Below, piece after piece: positions 11,819 to 15,610 of a stretch of 37,707 bases of DNA. The DNA comes from Verrucomicrobiota bacterium. Lineage in GTDB: Bacteria; Verrucomicrobiota; Verrucomicrobiia; Limisphaerales; VHCN01. Below the pieces are notes generated by a model that worked only from the letters and a program-made list of their open reading frames with translations, was not told the origin of the DNA and ran no database searches. The stretch's first letter is position 1. Each line of letters begins with the position of its first letter. Position numbers and translations under genes: made by a program. Where the stretch lies: NCBI GenBank assembly GCA_016871675.1, contig VHCN01000031.1, positions 1 to 37,707 on the forward strand, read 5' to 3'.

Positions 11819-14800
11819 ATGAGCACCACGGCGAAGGACTCGCAGTTGATCGAGTCCGCCATCGCGCTCGCGCGCGCGTTGCAGGCGCGCGCGACGGGGC
11901 TTCAGACGCCGCACGAGCGCCGCCAGCAGGCCGAGTTGGACCGCATGCTTCAGACGCCCGCGGACAAGGTCACGCTGGTGCAACTCACCGACCAGGCGTT
12001 CCGTTGTCGCGCGGTGTCGCGCACGGCGGACCACCTCACGCACATCCTCGACGCGCAGGGCGTGCCGCGCTTCTTCAGCCCGATGGACCGCGCGCTCTTG
12101 CGCGGGTTCCAGACCTTCGGCGGATGGCTGCCGGGCGTGTCCGTCCCGCTCGTGAAGGAGCACATGCAGCACGAGACCGCAAACGTCGTGCTGCCGGCCG
12201 AGACCGAGCTGCTCACGCGGCATCTCCGCGCGCGCCAGTCGGAGGGCGTGCGGATGAATCTCAACTTCCTGGGCGAAGCCCTGCTTGGCGAGGAGGAAGC
12301 CGCGCACCGGCTCGAGAAGTATCTTGCCGCACTACAATTGCCCGAGGTCGAGGTGATGTCCGTAAAAATCTCGACGCTTTTCTCGCAGATCCATCCCCTC
12401 GCGCGCGACCACACGCTGCGCGTGCTGTGCGAGCGGCTCGAATTGCTCTATCGCGAGGCGGCGCACCTGAAGTTCACGCGGCCCGACGGTTCGCACGCGG
12501 CGAAGTTCATCTACCTCGACATGGAGGAGTATCGCGACCTGCACCTCACCGCGCAGGCGTTCATGCGCGCGCTCGACCGGCCGGGGCTGCAACACGCGGG
12601 CGCGGGCATCGCGTTGCAGGCCTACATCCCGGACTCGGCCCGCGCGCAGCGCGAGCTGAACGACTGGGCGCGGCGGCGCGTCGCGGCCGGTGGCGCGCCG
12701 ATCACCGTTCGCATCGTGAAGGGCGCGAACATGGAAATGGAGCGTGTCGAGGCGTCGTTGCGCGACTGGCCGCAGGCGCCGTTCAAGTCGAAGCGTGAGA
12801 CGGACGCCAACTTCAAGCGCATGCTCCGCGAGGCGATGCGCCCGGAGAATCTCGCCGCCGTGCGTGTGGGCGTCGCTTCGCACAATCTCTTCGACCTCGC
12901 CTTTGGGCTCGTGCTCGCAGCGGACGCGCAGGCCGGTGACCGGGTGCAATTCGAGATGCTCGAGGGCATGGCGAATCACCAGCGGCGCGCGCTGCTCGAG
13001 CATTCGCGCAACCTGCTCCTCTACGCGCCCGCGTGCCGCAAGGAGGAGTTCCTCAACGCCATCGGCTATCTCATCCGCCGGCTCGACGAGAACACCGGGC
13101 CGGAGAATTTCCTGCGGCACGCGTTCCGGTTGAACGTGGGCTCGGCGGACTGGGATCAACTGGAGCGCGGCTTCCGCGAAGCGTTCGAGGTGAGAGCCTC
13201 CGACGCACCGCGTCGCACGCAGGACCGGTTGACGGAGCGATCGGATGCGCCGCGCGCGGAGATGGACTGGCGTCACTTCCAAAACGAGCCGGACACCGAC
13301 TGGTCGCTTCCGCAGAACAGCGCGTGGGCCGCGAGCATCGGGGCGAGGCAGGCGGCGGGCACGACCGAGATTCCGCTGGTGATCGGCGGCGAGCCATTGG
13401 CATTTGACAACCGGCAACCGGCCATCGGCCATTGTCTCGATCCATCCCGCCCCGGCGTGGTCGTGGCGCGGTATCGCGTGGCGGACGTGTCGGACATCGA
13501 GCGCGCGGTCGCTTGCGCGAAGGCCGATCCCGATGGCTGGCGCGCAATGACCCTGGATGAACGCAGCGCCGTGCTCGGCCGCGTGGCGCAGGAGCTTCGC
13601 CGCGCCCGCGCCGATTTGATGTGGGCCGCGCTCGCGAATGGAGGCAAGACGCTCGCCGAGTCCGATCCCGAGGTGAGCGAGGCCGTGGATTTCGTGGAGT
13701 TCTACCGCGCCAGCGCGCGGGAGTTTTTCGAATTGGGGGGCGTCACCGAACGAGGCGCCACCTCATGGGCACCGGGCTTCAGCCCGGTGAGCGGGCCTGA
13801 AACGAAATGGCCAGCCGCGTCAGCGGCTTCCCCTCGGGTCAAAGCCATGGAAACGGCTGCACCCGTTGACCGGCCGGCCAACACCGCGCCGAAGCCGGGG
13901 GCTGAAGAGAGGATTCACGCAGCCGGCCGCGGCGTCGTGGTCGTCGTGCCGCCGTGGAATTTTCCCATCGCGATTCCCGGCGGCGGCGTCGCGGCGGCGC
14001 TCGCGGCGGGGAACACGGTCATCCTCAAGCCCGCGTCGGACACCGTGCTCATCGCGTGGGAGTTGTGCCAGTGCTTCTGGCGCGCGGGCGTGTCGCGGCG
14101 CGTATTGCAGTTCGCACCGTGTCCCGGCAGCGGCGCGGGCGCGCGACTCGTCACGCATCCGGACGTGGATGCCGTCATCCTCACCGGCGGCACGGACACT
14201 GCGCTGCGCATGTTGAACGCGCGCCCCGACCTGCGGCTCTTCGCCGAGACGGGCGGCAAGAATGCGACCATCATCACCGCGCTTTCCGACCGCGAGCTTG
14301 CGATCAAGCACCTCGTCCACAGCGCGTTCAGCCACAGCGGGCAGAAGTGTTCCGCCACCTCGCTGCTGCTGCTCGAGGCGGAAGTTTACGAGGATGCCGC
14401 GTTCAAGCGCATGCTCTGCGACGCCGTGAAGAGCCTCCACGTCGGCAGCGCGTGGGACTTGCCCACGCGCGTCGGTCCGCTCATTCGCCCGCCGGGCGGT
14501 GACTTGGAAGCGGCGCTCAAGACGCTCGAGCCCGGCGAATCGTGGGCCGTGCTGCCGCGACAGGTCGGCGACAACCCGCACTTGTGGTCGCCCGGCGTGA
14601 AATGGGGCGTGCAGCCCGGAAGTGTCACGCACCTCACGGAGTTCTTCGGGCCGGTGCTCGGCGTGATGCGCTTCGAGCGGTTGCACGAGGCCATCGCGCT
14701 CGTGAACCAGACCGGCTACGGGCTCACGAGCGGCCTCGCGAGCCTCGACGACCGCGAGCAAGCCGAGTGGCTCGCGGGCATCCGCGCGGGCAACCTCTAC

Positions 14801-15610
14801 ATCAACCGCCCGACGACCGGAGCGGTGGTGCTGCGCCAGCCGTTCGGCGGGATGGGCAAGTCCGTCTTCGGCGCGGGCATGAAGGCGGGCGGGCCGAACT
14901 ACGTGGCGCAGTTCATGCAGTTCACGGAGTCCGACGAGCCAGACTCGCCGGACACGTCCGACTCGCGAGACAAATCCACCGGCCCGTTGCTGCCTGGCTT
15001 CATCGAAATCCTGCGCCACCTCGCGCCCGACGCCGCGCCCGCGCCGGACGTCCGTCGCACGCTCGCCGCGGTGCGGAGCTACGCGCGGAACTTCCGCGGA
15101 GAGTTCAGCCACGCGCACGACCACTTCCGCCTGCTCGGACAGGACAACTTCCGCCGCTACCTGCCCGTGCGCGAGGTGCGCGTGCGGGTCGGCGCGGCGG
15201 ACACTTTCTTCGAGAACGCCGCGCGCCTCGCCGCGGCACGCATCGCGGGGTGCCGCATCACCGCGAGCCACGCGCTGCCTTTCACGTCGGCGTCGGTGCA
15301 GTTGCTCCACGAGTTGACCGAGGAATGGGCTGGAGGCATCGAGTTTATCGAGGAGTCGGATGCTCAACTCGCCGCTGCGGTCCGCACACGACAGGCAGAC
15401 CGCATCCGCTTCGCCGCCGAGGACCGCGTGCCGCGCGTCGTGCGCGACGCCGCGGCGGAAACCGGTCTGTTCCTGGCCGACGCGCCCGTGGTGTCCGAGG
15501 GCCGCGTGGAACTGCTCTGGTATCTGCGCGAGCAAAGCATCAGCCACGACTACCACCGCTACGGCAACCTCGGCGCGCGCGGCTGCGATTCGCGCCGCGA
15601 ACCGGCGTGA
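11819..15610 (+). CDS. putA: Bifunctional proline dehydrogenase / L-glutamate gamma-semialdehyde dehydrogenase
   Basis: A 1263-residue PutA-type enzyme that oxidises proline to P5C (FAD domain) and then to glutamate (NAD domain). The proline dehydrogenase barrel spans about residues 60-470. It includes RMNLNFLGEALLGEEEA, IRIVKGANMEME-type strands (VRIVKGANMEMERVE here), and the substrate-binding YLIRRLDENTGPENFLRHA. The aldehyde dehydrogenase domain has GVVVVVPPWNFPIAIPGGG, the general base Glu810 in FAETGGKN and the nucleophile Cys844 in SGQKCSATS. A C-terminal region of about 230 residues follows, as in longer PutA forms. The ATG at 11819 lies 2 bases after the DUF3472 stop. Residues about 640-698 are not ALDH-like and are encoded by an in-frame palindromic insertion. 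No DNA-binding N-terminus is present, so it is not an autoregulator. Confidence 0.93.
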   Translation: MSTTAKDSQLIESAIALARALQARATGLQTPHERRQQAELDRMLQTPADKVTLVQLTDQAFRCRAVSRTADHLTHILDAQGVPRFFSPMDRALLRGFQTFGGWLPGVSVPLVKEHMQHETANVVLPAETELLTRHLRARQSEGVRMNLNFLGEALLGEEEAAHRLEKYLAALQLPEVEVMSVKISTLFSQIHPLARDHTLRVLCERLELLYREAAHLKFTRPDGSHAAKFIYLDMEEYRDLHLTAQAFMRALDRPGLQHAGAGIALQAYIPDSARAQRELNDWARRRVAAGGAPITVRIVKGANMEMERVEASLRDWPQAPFKSKRETDANFKRMLREAMRPENLAAVRVGVASHNLFDLAFGLVLAADAQAGDRVQFEMLEGMANHQRRALLEHSRNLLLYAPACRKEEFLNAIGYLIRRLDENTGPENFLRHAFRLNVGSADWDQLERGFREAFEVRASDAPRRTQDRLTERSDAPRAEMDWRHFQNEPDTDWSLPQNSAWAASIGARQAAGTTEIPLVIGGEPLAFDNRQPAIGHCLDPSRPGVVVARYRVADVSDIERAVACAKADPDGWRAMTLDERSAVLGRVAQELRRARADLMWAALANGGKTLAESDPEVSEAVDFVEFYRASAREFFELGGVTERGATSWAPGFSPVSGPETKWPAASAASPRVKAMETAAPVDRPANTAPKPGAEERIHAAGRGVVVVVPPWNFPIAIPGGGVAAALAAGNTVILKPASDTVLIAWELCQCFWRAGVSRRVLQFAPCPGSGAGARLVTHPDVDAVILTGGTDTALRMLNARPDLRLFAETGGKNATIITALSDRELAIKHLVHSAFSHSGQKCSATSLLLLEAEVYEDAAFKRMLCDAVKSLHVGSAWDLPTRVGPLIRPPGGDLEAALKTLEPGESWAVLPRQVGDNPHLWSPGVKWGVQPGSVTHLTEFFGPVLGVMRFERLHEAIALVNQTGYGLTSGLASLDDREQAEWLAGIRAGNLYINRPTTGAVVLRQPFGGMGKSVFGAGMKAGGPNYVAQFMQFTESDEPDSPDTSDSRDKSTGPLLPGFIEILRHLAPDAAPAPDVRRTLAAVRSYARNFRGEFSHAHDHFRLLGQDNFRRYLPVREVRVRVGAADTFFENAARLAAARIAGCRITASHALPFTSASVQLLHELTEEWAGGIEFIEESDAQLAAAVRTRQADRIRFAAEDRVPRVVRDAAAETGLFLADAPVVSEGRVELLWYLREQSISHDYHRYGNLGARGCDSRREPA
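13733..13915. repeat. Palindrome-rich insertion inside putA
   Basis: This stretch holds a perfect 9-bp hairpin (13770-13778 with 13781-13789), a 6-bp hairpin (13813-13818 with 13823-13828), and nested arms GGTCAA 13837-13842 / TTGACC 13866-13871 with AGCC 13843-13846 / GGCT 13855-13858 inside. CCGGGGGCTGAA near 13897 mirrors the TTCAGCCCGG of the first hairpin. It is open in the putA frame and encodes Pro/Ala-rich sequence between FYRASAREFFE and RGVVVVVPPWNF, which are close together in typical PutA/ALDH proteins. Confidence 0.75.

Follow-up and report, generated by a model that had tools for sequence, protein, structure and literature searches.

Palindromic repeats that lie in frame within protein-coding genes are best known from Rickettsia. 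A review of these Rickettsia palindromic elements (RPEs) describes their contribution to new proteins as unexplored and considers that the same may occur elsewhere (PMC10969869). REPs tagged with GTAG or CGTC have been found inside ORFs, including those of Opitutus terrae of the Verrucomicrobia, so that in-frame palindromes are not new to this phylum as a phenomenon, and GTAG repeats are tied to Y1 transposases in many genomes (PMC3733652). Enzymes of the IS200/IS605 type recognise subterminal hairpins in single-stranded DNA and a guide tetranucleotide located at the foot of the hairpin (PMC6006769); short derivatives of IS605-type elements that consist of fused ends have been named palindrome-associated transposable elements (PATEs; PMC3119063). 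In the literature searched, we found neither the element family described below nor its host genes or its transposase.

PutA and its insert

The window, a stretch of 37,707 nucleotides, comes from a Verrucomicrobiota genome of 3.61 Mb in 149 contigs and contains putA (11819–15607, + strand), which encodes a proline dehydrogenase / L-glutamate gamma-semialdehyde (P5C) dehydrogenase of 1263 aa. A sequence-only reading of this locus had proposed that a palindromic repeat is read as protein inside the aldehyde dehydrogenase (ALDH) domain while the frame stays open and both active sites remain intact. The ORF is indeed uninterrupted, the ALDH motifs ETGG and GQKCSA are retained, and Pfam places Pro_dh at residues 134–434 (E 8.9e-59). 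The Aldedh match is divided into two stretches, the better of which spans residues 693–1035 (E 3.7e-96). NCBIfam models for PutA and P5C dehydrogenase match as well, albeit under their cut-offs, and the best PDB relative is the PutA structure 5ux5, the closest one solved.

Among the 58 genomes of the order that we searched, nine besides the source genome encode PutA-like proteins. In those relatives that cover the site, the match stops at query residues 635–644 and resumes at 697–702, the two flanks being directly adjacent in the relatives. A clean empty site is found in orthologues such as those of G024 (83–84% identity) and G026 (80%), and codon alignment with the orthologues delimits an insert of 171 bp at 13754–13924 (+ strand), corresponding to 57 codons (646–702), which occurs in none of the other PutA proteins found in the order. 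Judged from these alignments, with the empty site known from orthologues of at most about 84% protein identity, the segment is an insertion relative to all relatives found. This agrees with the earlier estimate of about 60 residues unlike ALDH between two blocks adjacent in other PutA proteins; of the span given for them (13733–13915), the start lay about 20 bases too early and the remainder was right. As predicted from the sequence, the gene should be translated into a PutA that carries about 57 extra residues and retains its activity. Relative to 5ux5, the insert lies in an unaligned stretch between a helix ending in EFYRASA and a strand starting with GVVVVVPPWNF. The linker at this position is variable in length among aldehyde dehydrogenases, which makes it plausible that PutA tolerates the insert, and it is longer in the distantly related L075. 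An AlphaFold2 model of the ALDH part alone, computed without an alignment, was unusable (mean pLDDT 38).

The PutA of G017 (L074) has peculiarities of its own. At about 1420–1500 of this locus, 24 residues of a different insert (within GTGVPPVSGNPDIAQKVSVDRQDACPT) lie in frame in the proline dehydrogenase part; the ends of this insert are roughly inverted (GTGGCACAGGCGTCC / GGATGCTTGTCCCAC), and it probably represents a second palindromic family that has become part of a coding sequence. Compared to other PutA proteins it also lacks about 40 ALDH residues (window residues ~898–939), the flanks being adjacent.

Anatomy and distribution of the element family

Within the insert we recognise one full-length copy of a quasi-palindromic element of about 154 bp (13759–13912, + strand), with full-length homologues in G002, G017, G018, G021, G025, G037, G044, and others. 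In the copy alignment (A1), the left outer end is CACCTCATGGG (13759–13769; family consensus CCTCTCATTAG), followed by hairpin 1, CACCGGGCTTCAGCCCGGTG (13770–13789), a conserved column block whose perfect 9-bp stem (13770–13778/13781–13789) had been noticed already in the initial reading. Copy alignment and covariation define hairpin 2, AGCCGCGTCAGCGGCT (13813–13828); the same evidence, together with the count of intact pairs, shows hairpin 3, AGCCATGGAAACGGCT (13843–13858), to be partly decayed and hairpin 4, CACCGCGCCGAAGCCGGGGG (13882–13901; consensus CACCGGGCTRAAGCCCGGTG), to be decayed. The right outer end, CTGAAGAGAGG (13902–13912; consensus CTAATGAGAGG), is the left end inverted; all these features lie on the + strand. 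The left half of the consensus comprises CCTCTCATTAG, the hairpin CACCGGGCTTYAGCCCGGTG, about 22 nt, and the hairpin AGCCGCTTYAGCGGCT; after about 15 nt, the right half, made up of the hairpin AGCCGTTRAAACGGCT, about 20 nt, the hairpin CACCGGGCTRAAGCCCGGTG, and CTAATGAGAGG, is the left half inverted. TTAG, replaced by TTAA in some copies, precedes hairpin 1 at the foot of the outer stem.

The impression that the segment is packed with hairpins stands in one sense and falls in another. As single-stranded DNA its folding energy is unexceptional (z −0.86; 39 of 200 shuffles fold as well), and for this reason the case is built on homology rather than hairpin density. In contrast, the four hairpins recur from copy to copy: across 20 aligned copies 98.6% of the cells form pairs, and compensatory changes occur in all four hairpins (7 of 32 pairs, 12 cells), a level reached by none of 500 shuffles. 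This supports the hairpins being selected structures of the element. In the window copy, 7 of the 32 family pairs are broken, compared with 0–1 in each of the other 19 copies. Rfam gave no match within the window.

The source genome contains one further copy with real similarity, which is shorter, lies on contig 45 (C45:1475–1596), and is likewise in frame inside a gene. Homologues of full length (~151 bp) are common in related genomes. Searched with a covariance model, 24 of the 58 genomes of the order yield matches, including at least 50 scored candidates on both strands in each of G017, G018, and G036; since the palindrome matches on both strands, match counts are roughly doubled, and the four matches in the source genome are taken as two copies. 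An exact pattern retrieved 113 stretches from named genomes; almost all of them bear the title Verrucomicrobia, Verrucomicrobia subdivision 3, Limisphaerales, or Pedosphaera, and a few copy-bearing records are titled Proteobacteria or Acidobacteria. By these searches the family is common across Verrucomicrobiota subdivision 3 (Limisphaerales/Pedosphaera), a host group deduced from the titles, and the suspected segment is neither a solitary sequence nor a regular part of PutA. Copies from G002 and G017 (L100, L102, L103, L107, L113) share an extra motif about 15–20 bp beyond the element, CAAAA... to the left or ...CATTTTGA to the right, which may reflect a longer element or a preferred target.

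We examined the coding context of 124 copies, almost all from named genomes. With gene calls based on a simple codon model and Pfam rather than full annotation, 62 copies show a coding signal on neither side and 25 on one side only; about 15 lie within long open frames whose GC content at the three codon positions follows a coding-type pattern, and most others are intergenic. The in-frame hosts include the glycine dehydrogenase GcvP (one site, four genomes), a GH63-like hydrolase (one site, two genomes), PSD1/PSCyt2, YfhO, a DUF7133-ThuA protein, and an oxidoreductase with Pyr_redox and Fer4 domains. Read in the frame of PutA, the element gives SWAPGFSPV...NTAPKPGAEER; the copy on contig 45, inside an ORF of 1088 aa (DUF7133, cytochrome c), is read in the same frame as SFAPGFSRV...RTGLKPGAHER. 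In the G026 orthologue of the latter gene, this position is occupied by a diverged segment (ISLAPSFSPT...GPLLGADE), and this comparison suggests an old insertion common to both genomes. Nearly all in-frame copies encode the right end TGLKPGANE, preceded on the left by LAPGFSPV or, in GcvP, by TGLQPGV. Copies in the opposite orientation (L202, L144, L226, L143) encode the same peptide, as predicted because the element is symmetric. None of the copies examined clearly breaks a gene; the strongest candidate, L182, reads as a pair of genes separated by the element. Selection on the element itself for coding capacity is unsupported, as 50 of 65 non-genic copies have stops in the frame used by PutA.

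In the inserts shared by GcvP proteins, pN/pS is about 0.5–0.8 versus about 0.2 in the flanks, and pS itself is lower in the insert. This points to weak constraint on the insert peptide; the lower pS perhaps reflects a younger age or selection on the DNA palindrome. Two further observations concern individual hosts: a single ORF of about 2070 aa (L226:829–7038) contains two element copies, one complete and one partial, and in two genomes (L191, L209) the GcvP insert is directly followed by the peptide HSSFVIRHSSFL, apparently a simple DNA repeat that is translated too.

A candidate mobilising transposase

The source genome has no Y1_Tnp gene. Plain co-occurrence of Y1_Tnp and element across genomes is uninformative because Y1_Tnp is present in 48 of the 58 genomes, whereas one specific clade is informative. 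In G044 (L252), a Y1 transposase gene (1255–1707) is accompanied by element halves at 1152–1246 and 1673–1767; in G017 (L243), the gene (1202–1657, − strand) is accompanied by halves at 1142–1221 and 1682–1762. The closest transposase clade comprises five genomes, G044 itself and four at 61–67% identity over the main match. Element ends are found at the gene in all five, on both sides in at least three (L252, L243, and L264 of G022) and on at least one side at L265 and L266 (G051, G038), while none of 25 more distant Y1 loci has them. L252, L243, and L264, in which the element's ends enclose a Y1 TnpA gene, represent putative autonomous copies as expected for IS200/IS605 elements. The transposase scores above the cut-off of the NCBIfam IS200/IS605 model NF033573 and resembles solved IS200-type structures, e.g., 2xm3 and 2vhg. 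Its position makes the Y1 transposase of this clade the likely mobiliser of the element. By analogy with the family's recognition mechanism, TTAG, which lies at the corresponding position, may be the guide tetranucleotide here.

At L252 and L243 the gene lies between nuoH-like and nuoI-like genes (names read by eye from the sequence); the two genomes that share this site are labelled as different families. Several copy-rich genomes, namely G018 (with no Y1 gene at all), G002, G033, G036, and G057, have no transposase of the clade, which counts against the explanation preferred below and may be due to assembly gaps, loss, or another enzyme.

Origin of the insert and comparison with known systems

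The segment in putA is very probably a non-autonomous palindromic mobile element of the IS200/IS605 type that was mobilised into the gene by a Y1 transposase with the frame kept. The element would consist of two double-hairpin ends joined without a transposase gene, and a Y1 (HUH tyrosine) transposase acting in trans would have recognised its hairpins in single-stranded DNA; we infer this transposition step from the position of the transposase gene and the known mechanism of the enzyme family. Insertion would have occurred in the ALDH domain, at the linker that directly precedes the GVVVVVPPWNFP strand; the frame stayed open because the length of the insert is divisible by three and the element offers one open frame. 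The lineage would later have lost any detectable Y1 transposase, leaving two copies that are both in frame in genes; in a genome without this enzyme the putA copy is a relic, whose palindrome is decaying while the frame is kept. A further detail counts against this explanation: the insert exceeds the recognised element by 17 bp at its edges, owing to divergence or to extra terminal sequence.

The most serious competitor, which we nevertheless consider unlikely, is a REP/REPIN moved by a RAYT (TnpA-REP), that is, by a domesticated, vertically inherited enzyme instead of one belonging to an IS200/IS605-type mobile element. High copy number, paired inverted hairpins, and TTAG replacing GTAG at the foot of the hairpin (PMC6006769) are consistent with such a system, as is the transposase gene between nuoH-like and nuoI-like genes, whose recurrence in two genomes suggests vertical inheritance there. 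However, the enzyme that passes the IS200/IS605 cut-off falls far under that of the curated model for REP-associated transposases, NF047646 (27.7 and 20.8 bits, with a cut-off of 80), TTAG or TTAA takes the place of GTAG/GTGG or CGTC as the tag, and the units are four-hairpin composites of about 154 bp rather than single hairpin repeats of 20–40 nt.

That ordinary indels expanded an ALDH surface loop in this lineage, with incidental palindromes, would fit the length-variable linker, longer still in L075, and the unexceptional folding energy, but is hardly credible: end-to-end DNA homology to elements dispersed over other genes and intergenic regions of many genomes already refutes it. A further question is whether the element is kept in putA beyond mere tolerance, for a function of its hairpins (RNA/DNA) or of its peptide in regulation or interaction. 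Same-site inserts common to several genomes, as in GcvP and the GH63-like gene, and the diverged one of G026 at the contig 45 site, indicate that inserts persist for long; yet the hairpins in PutA are decaying, and the GcvP inserts exceed the flanking enzyme in pN/pS as expected of a tolerated segment. We regard such a function as improbable.

Beyond putA, the chances seem evenly balanced that a palindromic derivative of the IS200/IS605 type has repeatedly seeded Verrucomicrobiota proteins with a segment of about 50 residues that is then long inherited, as the GcvP same-site inserts in four genomes would exemplify. If true, in-frame palindromic elements would repeatedly give rise to new protein segments in bacteria other than Rickettsia, and, with the mobilising enzyme known, the process would be directly testable. 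The family adds a further in-frame case from uncultured Verrucomicrobiota, in core enzymes (PutA, glycine dehydrogenase) and with shared insertion sites; these sites and a candidate transposase with the same ends turn both the movement of the element and its tolerance by enzymes into testable questions.

Among described systems, the REPs of Opitutus terrae are similar in being palindromic repeats in ORFs of a verrucomicrobium (PMC3733652) and differ in unit and tag as set out above. With IS200/IS605 elements and PATEs the family shares subterminal hairpins, a Y1 TnpA in the autonomous form, and short derivatives made of fused ends only (PMC3119063). Unlike the PATEs of Haloquadratum, which were described without terminal inverted repeats, its ends are inverted copies and the whole unit is therefore one palindrome, and its copies also occur in frame in genes. 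The parallel to RPEs drawn at the outset is borne out in anatomy and behaviour: as far as the account in PMC10969869 goes (citing Ogata 2000, 2002), RPEs are likewise palindromes of about 150 bp, several of them in frame in unrelated genes, with a conserved peptide from one frame and host proteins apparently intact. Here, palindromes of about 100–150 bp that encode a conserved peptide lie in frame in the window and in about 14 further ORFs. The differences are the phylum, the mostly intergenic location of the Verrucomicrobiota copies, and the presence of a cognate transposase gene that carries the element ends on its flanks. The element works like an RPE and is best classed as a separate, new non-autonomous family of the IS200/IS605 type.
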